A stretch of DNA of 64,000 nt, from assembly GCA_030431455.1 (NCBI GenBank), contig JAUIJE010000011.1, positions 248,001-312,000 on the forward strand. The letters run 5' to 3'. Below the pieces are notes generated by a model. That model did no database searches. It was not told where the DNA came from and saw nothing but the letters and a program-made list of their open reading frames with translations. The stretch's first letter is position 1; each line of letters opens with the position of its first letter. This stretch comes from a bacterium (GTDB lineage: Bacteria > Myxococcota > UBA727 > JAUIJE01). Below are positions 54,186 to 64,000 of this stretch, piece after piece. Both the position numbers and the translations under genes were made by a program.

Positions 54186-55498
54186 CAAGTGGTCTCGCGG
54201 GCTGCGGTGCCCTCTGTAGACTTGGGCACCGGGGCGCGCGGGTCAACCACGCCGCCGCCCGCGTCGACGACCACCCGGGCCGAGCGCTGGTAGGTGACAT
54301 AGGAGTAAGCCCACTCGAACACCACCACCGCCCGGTTGCGAAAGCCCACCAGGTAGATCAGGTGCACGAACAACCAACCGAGCCACGCCAGGGTGCCGGT
54401 GAGGTTGAGCCCCGCCACGCGGCCCACCGCTTTCTTGCGGCCGATGGTGGCGAGGGTGCCTTTGTCGAGATACCGAAACGGACGCTTCTTCTCGCCCGCG
54501 ACCTGGCGGCGGATGTTGTCCGCGGCGTGGCGTCCCATCTGCAACGCGGCCGGCGCCACCCCGGGGACGGGGGCCCCGTCTTGTTCGAAGTGGGCGAGGT
54601 CGCCGCATACATAGACATTGTCGTGATCGTTGGCCTCGAGGGTGGGGCGGACATTGACCCGGCCGGCGCGATCGGTGGAGCCGAGGTCCCGGCCCAAGGG
54701 CGAGGCTTGGTTGCCCGCAGCCCAGAGCACGGTGCGGGCGTCGATGCGTTCGCCGTCGATGTCGACCCCCCGGGCATCGACCGCGGTGACCTTGGTGTCG
54801 AGCAGGACCTCGACCCCGAGGCGCTGGAGCTGGGACACGGCGTCGTCGCTGAGCCGCTCCACCATCGCGGGCAGCACCCGGGGGCCGCCCTCGACGAGGA
54901 TGACCTCGGCCGAGCCGGGACTGAACCGGCGAAAGTCGCGGGTCAGGGTCTTGCGGGCGATCTCGGCGATGGCCCCCGCGAGCTCGACCCCGGTGGGTCC
55001 CGCCCCGACGACCACGAACCGCAGCCAGGGGGCGGCTTCGGGCCCGCCCCCCAGACGCTCGGCCTCTTCAAACGCCGAGATGATGCGGTACCGCACATTG
55101 AAGGCGTCCTCGAGGGTCTTGAGGCCGGGGGCGTGCTGTTCCCACTCGTCGTGGCCGAAGTACGTGTGGCGCGCTCCGGTGGCGACGATGAGGTGGTCGT
55201 AGGGTTGGCGCCCGCTCTTTTTGAAGTGGACCTCCCGGGCCCCGGGGTCGATGCGGGTGGCCTCGTCGAGGAGAACGGTGGCGTTCTTTTGGCGGCGGAG
55301 CACCCGGCGGATGGGGCTGGCCACGTCGGGGGCGGCGAGGGCAGCGGTGGCCACCTGGTAAAGCAACGGCTGGAACAGGTGGTGGTTGGTGCGGTCGTAG
55401 ACCACGACGTCCACGGGGGCGCGGGCCAGGCGCTGGGCCGCGAACAACCCGGCGAACCCACCGCCGAGGATCATCACCCGGGGACGCGCGCCGCTCAT
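54185..55498 (-). CDS. ndh: Type II NADH dehydrogenase
   Basis: 437 aa FAD enzyme transferring electrons from NADH to quinone without pumping protons. FAD motif ILGGGFAGLFAAQRLA at the N terminus, NAD motif VVGAGPTGVELAGAIAE (about residue 165), YVCGDLAHF for the FAD C-terminal part, and a C-terminal membrane-binding helix (LAWLGWLFVHLIYLVGF) as in NDH-2. Operon with the M50 protease downstream and the hydrolase-OsmC gene upstream (ATGA overlap). Likely monotopic on the inner membrane. Confidence 0.93.
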   Translation of the reverse strand: MSGARPRVMILGGGFAGLFAAQRLARAPVDVVVYDRTNHHLFQPLLYQVATAALAAPDVASPIRRVLRRQKNATVLLDEATRIDPGAREVHFKKSGRQPYDHLIVATGARHTYFGHDEWEQHAPGLKTLEDAFNVRYRIISAFEEAERLGGGPEAAPWLRFVVVGAGPTGVELAGAIAEIARKTLTRDFRRFSPGSAEVILVEGGPRVLPAMVERLSDDAVSQLQRLGVEVLLDTKVTAVDARGVDIDGERIDARTVLWAAGNQASPLGRDLGSTDRAGRVNVRPTLEANDHDNVYVCGDLAHFEQDGAPVPGVAPAALQMGRHAADNIRRQVAGEKKRPFRYLDKGTLATIGRKKAVGRVAGLNLTGTLAWLGWLFVHLIYLVGFRNRAVVVFEWAYSYVTYQRSARVVVDAGGGVVDPRAPVPKSTEGTAARETT

Positions 55499-56739
55499 GG
55501 GTGACCTGGGGCCGGGCCGTCGCCGAGCACGGTCTTGACCTCATTTTTGCGGTGAAGGGTTTGGTGCACGGGGCACTTGTCGGCGATCTCGAGCAGACGT
55601 TGGCGTTGTTCGTCGTCGAGGTCGCCGGTGATGTGCACCACCCGGTCGATGCGGTCGACTTTGCCCTGGGTCTCGTCGCAGGTCGCGCAATCGGTGGCGT
55701 GGATCTTCTTGTGGGTGAGGGACACGTCGACGTGCTCGAGCGGCCACCGCTTGCGGTCGGCGTACATGCGAAGAGTCATCGACGTGCACGCCCCCAGCGC
55801 GGCCAGCAGCAACTGGTAGGGCGAAGGGCCGCTGTCCTGCCCCCCAACGTGCCGGGGCTCGTCGGCGGACAAGGGGTGGCCCCCGGCGCTGATGTCCTGG
55901 CCGTAGGGGGTGCGGTGGTTGTCGTGGACCACCACCGGGGCCTCGTGGTCGGGGGCGGCGGTGTCGTCGGGCGCGGCGTCTTCGAGGACGCGGCGCACCC
56001 GGGCGCAGATCATGTCCGCCACGAGCTCGGCGTCGCGCTCGTCGGTCAGGAGGTGATCGGCGGCGGGGGGCAGGGTGATGAGGCTCGCGTCGTGGGGCGC
56101 CCAGCGCTGCAGCTGTTCGGCGTGGGCGAAGGGCACGGTCTCGTCGCCGGGGGCGTGAAACAAAAGCAGCGGACGGCCCAGGGCGGCGACGCGGTCTTGT
56201 TGGGGTTGACCGCTGATGTCGTCGAGGAACTTCTTGGTCACGGTGAACGTGCGGCCCGCGATCTCCACCGGGGCGCTCCCGGTGTCGGCGATTTGGTCGA
56301 GCTTGTCGTCGAACAGGTGCCGCACGTGGGCCGGGTCCGCGGGGGCGCCGATGGTGCACACCAGCTTCACCGAGGGCAGGCCGTGGGCGGCCGCGAGCAC
56401 GGCCGCGCCGCCGAAGGAGTGGCCCACGAGCACCGCCGGGGCCCGGTACCGGGCCGCCAACGCCTCGGCCGCGAGCAGCACGTCCTCGACGTTGGACGAA
56501 AAGTCAGCGTTTGCGAAGTCGCCCTCGCTCCCGCCGAGCCCGGTGAAGTCGAACCGCAGGGTGGCGATGCCGTGGCGGGTGAGGGCCCGGGTCACCCGCC
56601 GCGCGGCGGTGGTCTGCATCGAGCAGGTGAAACAGTGCGCGAACACACAGGTGGCCACGATGGGCCCGTCGGGCAGCTCGACGCGGGCGTGGAGGGCATC
56701 GTCGTGGGACCCGGTGAATTCGAAACGTTCGCTTGGCAT
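55495..56739 (-). CDS. Alpha/beta hydrolase fused to OsmC-like domain
   Basis: 414 aa. Residues 1-~250 alpha/beta hydrolase: oxyanion/elbow [13 protein letters not shown] (nucleophile Ser about 115), Asp in [10 protein letters not shown], His in PAADHLLTD. Residues ~275-414 OsmC-like: [20 protein letters not shown] and [12 protein letters not shown] hold the two redox cysteines for peroxide reduction. The fused pair is an established architecture. AGGAGCGATC before ATG 56739. First gene of the three-gene operon with ndh and the M50 protease; suggests organic-peroxide or lipid detoxification linked to respiration. Confidence 0.9.
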
Positions 56740-56827
56740 GATCGCTCCTCGGCCTGTTCTTCGCGGTCGCACTTGGGTTATCTCAATCGAAGGCGCCGCG
56801 TGCAGCCTCTTTCAGCGACGGGGAGCG

Positions 56828-63106: not shown

Positions 63107-63319
63107 CTACCAACCGCCTTCGTCTTTGTTCTCGTCGGCGGCTTCGTCCGCTTCGGCCGCGCGTTGCTCGACCATCTCTTGGGTTTTCTTTTCGATCGCG
63201 TCGACGACCTTCTTCGGTTGCGACCCGATCTCTTCGGTGACTTCTTGGCGTTTCTTCTCGCAGCCGGTGGTGGCCACCACCGCGGGGAGCAACAGGGCGA
63301 TCAACAAGACGCAGCGCAT
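63107..63319 (-). CDS. Small lipoprotein, 70 aa
   Basis: Signal peptide RCVLLIALLLPAVVATTGC with Cys20, then a charged coiled coil (KKRQEVTEEIGSQPKKVVDA) and an acidic tail rich in Glu/Asp/Lys. Family unknown. GGAGAGAACC gives a strong ribosome site. It follows the selenoprotein gene by 43 nt on the same strand, so the two may form an operon. Confidence 0.75.
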   Translation of the reverse strand: MRCVLLIALLLPAVVATTGCEKKRQEVTEEIGSQPKKVVDAIEKKTQEMVEQRAAEADEAADENKDEGGW

Positions 63320-63362: not shown

Positions 63363-64000
63363 CTAGGGCTTGTGGTCACGAACAGCATCGAGGATCTCGG
63401 CGCCGGTGAGGTTGTCGTTGCCCGCGGGGGTCCCGTGGTCGGTGACGAACAAAATCTCCATGTCCGACCGCCGCACGATCATGTCGAACCCCCGGCCGGT
63501 GGCAAACGGGGCCTCGTCGAACACCCCCGCCACCGGCTCGGTCTCGGCGTCGCCCACGCACAAGCCCGCATCGCTGCCCCGGCCGGCCACGAACGTGAGA
63601 CAGGTGTCCGCCGTCCCCGGCTGGGCGTTCTGGTCTTGTTCGAGCACCCAAATCAGCTGGGCTCCTTCGGCGAGAATCTCTTCTTCCACTTCCGCCACCG
63701 AACCGGTGTGCGTCCGGCACGCGCTTCACCACGCGGGGATGGAGACGAACAGCAGCAGGTCGAACGGGCTCCACGCCCGGTTGGCGTCCTCGTCGCAGTA
63801 GGCGCGCAGAAGGTCGAGCTCACCGTCGGGACCGGCCGCGGTTTGGACCGACGGCCAGGCGTAAGGGGGCAACGCTTCGCCGAGGGCCATGGCCCCGTTG
63901 TGCGCCGGGTATTCACAGTTGCCCAAGGTGGGGGGCTCGGGATCGAACCCCCCTGCGGTGCCGCACGCGATCGCGGGCAGCACCAGGAGACCGGCCAGGC
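63363..64000 (-). CDS. Putative thioredoxin-like selenoprotein lipoprotein, N terminus outside window
   Basis: At least 211 codons. The visible N terminus has LAGLLVLPAIAC, a lipoprotein signal end. The frame is interrupted by TGA at 63728-63726 exactly in the thioredoxin-type active-site position: SIPAW-U-SACRTHTG, i.e. UxxC in place of CxxC, then EEEILAEGAQLIWVLEQD as in the thioredoxin fold. The same frame stays open with normal codon use for 257 nt before and over 360 nt after the TGA. A hairpin with a GUU loop lies 23 nt after it (see SECIS feature). Sec in such sites gives a strong redox centre. The alternative is a pseudogene with a single nonsense change, less likely given the motif position. 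Confidence 0.8.
63693..63712 (-). promoter_or_regulatory. Putative bacterial SECIS element
   Basis: On the mRNA (minus strand), after the UGA: CGC-A-CACCG-GUU-CGGUG-GCG, an 8-bp stem with one bulged A. The apical loop starts 23 nt after the UGA and with G, inside the usual bacterial range (about 16-37 nt). It is part of the coding sequence, as bacterial SECIS elements are. Confidence 0.6.

Follow-up and report, generated by a model that had tools for sequence, protein, structure and literature searches.

A probable selenoprotein gene in a Myxococcota bacterium, with selenocysteine in a thioredoxin-like UxxC site behind a secretion leader

Thioredoxin-like selenoproteins with a UxxC active site are a well-populated kind, going by two reviews (PMC13188914, PMC9312934). 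The same reviews describe Prx-like thiol:disulfide oxidoreductase selenoproteins (PF00578, UxxC), which have selenocysteine (Sec) at the first active-site position and a bacterial SECIS within the coding region, and one of them also lists Redoxin family protein selenoproteins with a UxxC site (PF08534; PMC13188914). The words "lipoprotein" and "Myxococc/myxo" are absent from both reviews, and no papers on selenoproteins in myxobacteria were found in the open-access literature. Here we analyze a UxxC gene from a member of the Myxococcota. A preliminary description of the locus regarded a lipidated, envelope-located UxxC protein of this kind as little described, which does not hold for UxxC thioredoxin-like selenoproteins in general, as the accessible part of the 2026 catalogue makes clear (PMC13188914). 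The novel part is a small subfamily, without an NCBIfam model and below Pfam cut-offs, which was not recognisable by family name among the families given in that part of the catalogue.

The gene lies at the end of a 64,000-nucleotide stretch of contig JAUIJE010000011.1 (positions 248,001 to 312,000; hereafter the window). It occupies window positions 63363-64019 on the minus strand, with the start ATG 19 nt past the window end (L015:1520, equal to window 64019) on a contig that runs 2.85 kb beyond the window. The frame of 218 codons reads LAGLLVLPAIACG...SIPAW*SACRTHTG...RDHKP* (asterisks mark stop codons) to a TAG stop at 63363-63365. Its one interruption is a single TGA at 63728-63726, the codon of residue 98. 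The features of the locus, followed by two further genes of the same genome, are:

63363..64000, minus strand, on to the ATG at 64019: selenoprotein coding sequence, 218 codons including Sec98, conserved across the TGA in loci L019 and L022
63966..64000, minus strand: predicted signal peptide MLAAPSRLAGLLVLPAIA, first codons outside the window; homologues also have short hydrophobic leaders
63963..63965, minus strand: Cys19, candidate lipidated cysteine in a marginal lipobox (PAIA-C); Cys kept in the three Sec homologues
63915..63917, minus strand: Cys35, conserved in the whole family (invariant, 16/16), probably pairing with Cys75
63795..63797, minus strand: Cys75, conserved in the whole family (invariant, 16/16)
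63726..63728, minus strand: in-frame TGA, Sec98, in PAW-U-SAC; TGA in all three close homologues (alignment column 158), Cys in 13/13 distant ones
63717..63719, minus strand: Cys101, resolving Cys of the UxxC motif (invariant, 16/16)
63693..63712, minus strand: SECIS-type hairpin (3 bp, 1-nt 5' bulge, 5 bp, GUU loop), topology common to the three Sec homologues
63600..63602, minus strand: Cys140, in the Sec subfamily only; Ala in 13/13 Cys homologues
63558..63560, minus strand: Cys154, in the Sec subfamily only; Arg or Ile in Cys homologues
63489..63494, minus strand: Arg176-Gly177 in place of x-Pro at the thioredoxin cis-Pro position; RG in 3/3 Sec forms, Pro in 13/13 Cys forms
63107..63319, minus strand: next gene downstream, a short lysine/glutamate-rich putative lipoprotein (MRCVLLIALLLPAVVATTGCEKK...), read from sequence
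G000:C8:224789-225157 (L087:1110): probable selenoprotein gene, Sec peroxiredoxin with TPGUT site
G000:C7:61299-61673 (L088:1111): probable selenoprotein gene, AhpC/TSA-type with HWUPAC site

On either side of the TGA the codon usage resembles that of coding sequence (mean log-odds per codon 0.48 and 0.59 bits), and GC3 is 0.87 on one side and 0.85 on the other. Among 154 TGAs of the extended window that are flanked on each side by a long open frame, only six score above 0.1 on both sides, and the three that outscore the selenoprotein TGA resemble gene-to-gene junctions. The claims of the preliminary description that one continuous frame is split by the TGA at PAW-U-SAC, and that the same frame and the same codons continue beyond it, were borne out by these values, coordinates included. 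The downstream lysine/glutamate-rich gene is separate from the selenoprotein itself, and co-transcription of the two is possible. Elsewhere in the window, a long ORF ends at a TGA that is followed directly, in the same frame, by another putative lipoprotein gene carrying a (GD)n tract (24972 onwards, plus strand); the arrangement resembles an ordinary gene junction. An ORF at 55495-56772 on the minus strand fuses an alpha/beta hydrolase to an OsmC-like domain, as read from its sequence.

Homologues were sought with a tblastn-like search that reads through stops. The closest relatives were a paralogue in the genome of the window, here G000 (G000:C21:4881-5417, 47% identity), and a homologue from another family (G040:C44:1530-2096, 52% identity). 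Each contains exactly one internal stop, a TGA, and all three TGAs share one alignment column within the motif I-P-A-W-U-[SP]-A-C. The preliminary description had named homologues that all end at this TGA as an outcome that would count against a selenoprotein; we found instead that protein similarity runs past the TGA to the C-terminus in both copies. In distant homologues from the same phylum there is no internal stop, and Cys occupies the TGA column in 13/13 of those aligned (W-C-x-x-C), which supports the earlier claim of a thioredoxin-like site with Sec at a CxxC position. The residues C35, C75, W97, C/U98 and C101 are invariant in all 16 aligned sequences (3 Sec, 13 Cys). The alignment that had been suggested as a check places the finding far above chance: three homologues share the TGA, and the other 13 have Cys instead.

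In our phylogenetic tree the Sec proteins formed a single clade with support of 100/100, and Sec and Cys versions coexist in two genomes, G000 and G040. No further Sec members were found in a search of 195 genomes of the phylum, and the only match in a GTDB contig search was the G040 record, present in that collection as JAUHYN010000338.1 from an unclassified MAG. Scans of viral contigs and plasmids recovered no relatives. The homologues have no conserved neighbourhood, and no partner is hinted at by the neighbours. The paralogue (G000:C21:4881-5498; L019:1459-2316, minus strand) has a U-P-A-C site and, separating its lipobox from the domain, a very long (Gly-Asp)n spacer of about 30 repeats. 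Among the Cys-type relatives, at least three form a tandem cluster in genome G002 (G002:C45:118221-123583; WCPNCP, WCGYCP); this genome has selB and tRNA-Sec, and its SelD is Cys-type.

The preliminary description had asked for selA, selB, selC and selD in the genome, and all four were found on the contig of the gene itself. Scores against NCBIfam models were 512 bits for selA (cut-off 268), 293 for selB (cut-off 242) and 377 for selD (cut-off 125). The selD gene lies at C12:238.6-239.6 kb and selA with selB at 239.7-243.0 kb, which puts these three genes 5-9 kb to the left of the window. The tRNA-Sec (selC), with a TCA anticodon, lies at C12:207384-207477. The distance from the selenoprotein gene to these machinery genes is 69-105 kb, and tRNA-Sec, selD-selA-selB and the selenoprotein gene all fall inside about 105 kb (G000:C12:207384-312019). 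While selB was identified by TIGR00475, the SelB winged-helix family PF09106 had no match in the genome, and the C-terminal part of selB seems too diverged for that model. The selD gene is itself of Sec type, with a TGA at the catalytic position (SGGGUAAKIG), and so is selD in G040 and in G046. In the window's genome selD points away from the adjacent selA-selB (G000:C12:238577-239614; L016:5578-6615, minus strand), and standard annotation would place its start too late. In G040 (75% complete, 1480 contigs) no selB and no tRNA-Sec were found, only the Sec-type selD. Two AhpC/TSA genes of the window's genome are also interrupted by TGA at the active site, at TPGUT and HWUPAC, and at least five proteins of the organism appear to contain Sec.

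Just 3' of the TGA, the stem of the SECIS-type hairpin begins at the 14th nt and its GUU loop at the 23rd (spacing 22 nt). The preliminary description had the position (63693-63712) and the loop right, but the start it gave, 23 nt after the TGA, is that of the loop and not of the stem. All three Sec homologues have a hairpin of identical topology, and the HWUPAC gene has it as well, again behind its TGA. Across the three homologues an outer C-G pair of the stem becomes G-C, a change in both partners, and one A-U becomes G-U; one pair is broken in G040. The compensatory pair, in an alignment of three sequences, was not significant against shuffles (158/500), and slid partners pair far worse than the hairpin's own partners. 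Published constraints for bacterial SECIS elements are a loop of 3-9 nt, a stem of 4-16 bp, a G among the first two loop nucleotides, a distance of 16-37 nt from the UGA and MFE <= -7.5 (PMC13188914). The hairpin agrees with them (3-nt loop, GUU; 5-bp upper stem; 22 nt; -11.5 kcal/mol, z -1.7), as the preliminary description had expected, but this is weaker support than it was presented as. In a control, a script modelled on these constraints accepted 294 of the window's 1254 TGA triplets (23%), so that the hairpin by itself is weak evidence. The script also turns down several genes that are probably true members (the paralogue, the G040 homologue and the TPGUT gene). A stricter test, designed after the first hairpins had been seen, passed 2/1254 window TGAs, and the TGA of the otherwise different HWUPAC gene passed it as well; both tests are rough. 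An Rfam search of the window gave no match.

Given conservation of the codon and the presence of the machinery, decoding of the UGA as Sec is well supported, and we put the probability that this is an authentic selenoprotein gene, with UGA read as Sec98 in a secreted, probably lipidated thioredoxin-like UxxC oxidoreductase, at roughly 0.9. Under the standard code the frame would end at the TGA, and a GTG at 63698 could open a 111-aa ORF, so that the locus would be a (pseudo)gene in decay or would encode two short proteins. However, in three homologues at 44-50% identity the frame is preserved along with its TGA, the sole disruption falls at the active-site Cys column with coding signal on both sides of it, and decay would not strike the same codon in paralogue and homologue; a genuine stop is therefore highly improbable. 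Still less credible is a sequencing or assembly error at 63726-63728 hiding TGC or TGT, an outcome that the preliminary description had also raised against itself. All distant homologues do have Cys at that codon, but the same TGA stands at three independent loci in two genomes, the G040 copy being found independently in the GTDB record JAUHYN010000338.1, and the organism has a full Sec system. General decoding of TGA as Trp or Gly (codes 4 and 25), or non-specific read-through, would also account for an open TGA-containing frame. We regard it as negligible: long ORFs of the window end at TGA, tRNA-Sec with a TCA anticodon and SelB are present, and each in-domain TGA found sits at a catalytic Cys position, with TGA in just 2/24 AhpC/TSA and 0/17 thioredoxin-domain matches of the genome.

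Against Pfam, the Sec forms stayed below threshold, the window protein with both PF00578 (AhpC-TSA, 13.8 bits, cut-off 26) and PF08534 (Redoxin, 13.3 bits, cut-off 26.6), and one Cys homologue passes PF00578 with 28.5 bits. No NCBIfam model matches the window protein, and the paralogue gives only low-complexity matches. Sequence comparison with the PDB yielded nothing significant (best match a peroxiredoxin, E 0.11). Structures predicted from a single sequence and from two had low confidence (pLDDT 33 and 37), so that the fold rests on sequence; the low-confidence model places a strand (82-88) and then a helix (92-103) around U98, as a thioredoxin fold would give. The thioredoxin-fold motif W-[CU]-x-x-C is present and the cis-Pro is absent, with Gly (after Arg) in 3/3 Sec forms. 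In all likelihood, the protein is a thioredoxin-like UxxC oxidoreductase with selenium in its active site.

It resembles the Prx-like PF00578 selenoproteins in its UxxC motif, thioredoxin-type fold by sequence, position of Sec and SECIS within the coding region (PMC13188914, PMC9312934). From these it differs in its secretion/lipoprotein leader, the family-wide Cys35/Cys75 pair, the extra Cys pair, the missing cis-Pro proline and the sub-threshold score. The Redoxin family protein selenoproteins (PMC13188914) are likewise UxxC proteins of redoxin-like type, but the window protein stays below the threshold of that family. Sec peroxiredoxins (TxxU), such as the TPGUT protein at G000:C8:224789, are also thioredoxin-fold selenoenzymes of this genome with Arg at or near the cis-Pro position; however, they have Sec as the peroxidatic residue of TxxU and lack the UxxC pair, whereas the window protein has Sec first in UxxC. 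The Cys-type thioredoxin-like proteins (G000:C8, G001-G004, G006, G010, G040) share the domain with C35, C75, W97, C/U98 and C101, and several also have a low-complexity N-terminal spacer. They differ in having WCxxC in place of WUxxC, x-Pro in place of Arg-Gly, and Ala and Arg/Ile in place of Cys140 and Cys154.

The N-terminal leader suggests that the window protein is probably secreted. Cys19 is preceded by LVLPAIA, a marginal lipobox with Pro at -4 and Ala at -3. Better lipoboxes occur in the Sec homologues, LGVAAC in the paralogue (followed by the long (GD)n spacer) and LLGFAC in G040. The protein is thus likely to be lipidated at Cys19 and anchored in the membrane; the earlier claim of a lipoprotein is favored by the hydrophobic leader and the two better lipoboxes, but its own PAIA-C site is marginal.

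Three differences from the Cys homologues (13/13) are fixed in the Sec clade: Cys140 stands in place of Ala, Cys154 in place of Arg/Ile, and Arg176-Gly177 in place of x-Pro. Peroxiredoxins carry Arg in place of the cis-Pro, which brings down the pKa of their peroxidatic Cys (PMC2757866), and the cis-Pro loop is reported to be necessary for efficient thiol-disulfide exchange (PMC13269488). Pro at this position is frequent and not universal across the thioredoxin fold class (PMC2757866). From the first two of these observations comes the proposal that the same selenoprotein reduces peroxide or another small molecule and does not act in protein thiol-disulfide exchange, with Sec98/Cys101 beside Arg176 and Cys140/Cys154 as an extra relay. 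The exchange of Pro for Arg-Gly with the gain of two Cys, and AhpC-TSA as the nearest Pfam family, point the same way. However, UxxC is kept, unlike the TxxC/TxxU of peroxiredoxins, and it is Gly177 that aligns to the Pro column, with Arg176 one residue off. The structure predictions are unreliable, and the alignment of profiles with the Prx-type selenoproteins of this genome is confined to the U/C-x-x-C region. With three sequences from one clade, shared ancestry and function are inseparable. We consider this proposal tentative, and somewhat doubtful on balance. A bolder version, that a family of thioredoxin-like envelope lipoproteins was remodelled once, with Cys98 becoming Sec as the cis-Pro was lost to Arg-Gly and Cys140/Cys154 were gained, to give a membrane-anchored enzyme that depends on Sec, reduces peroxides or lipid hydroperoxides and has kept UxxC beside a peroxiredoxin-like Arg, seems unlikely. 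If true, the remodelled family would represent a selenium-driven transition between thioredoxin and peroxiredoxin chemistry.

In the selenoprotein reading that we prefer, SelB, guided by the hairpin just 3' of the UGA, would deliver Sec-tRNA(Sec), giving one 218-residue protein and not two fragments. With its signal peptide, the product would be a thioredoxin-like oxidoreductase of the cell envelope. The selenolate of Sec98 may attack an oxidised substrate, and Cys101 would resolve the selenenyl-sulfide. Re-reduction could come from some envelope thiol system, perhaps via the Cys140/Cys154 pair. Standard-code annotation would split this gene in two. Read through, it offers a natural comparison, with Sec and Cys versions of one protein in the same two genomes and a fixed set of residues differing near the active site. 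This Sec/Cys pair allows a direct test of the changes needed when a thioredoxin-like protein takes up selenium.
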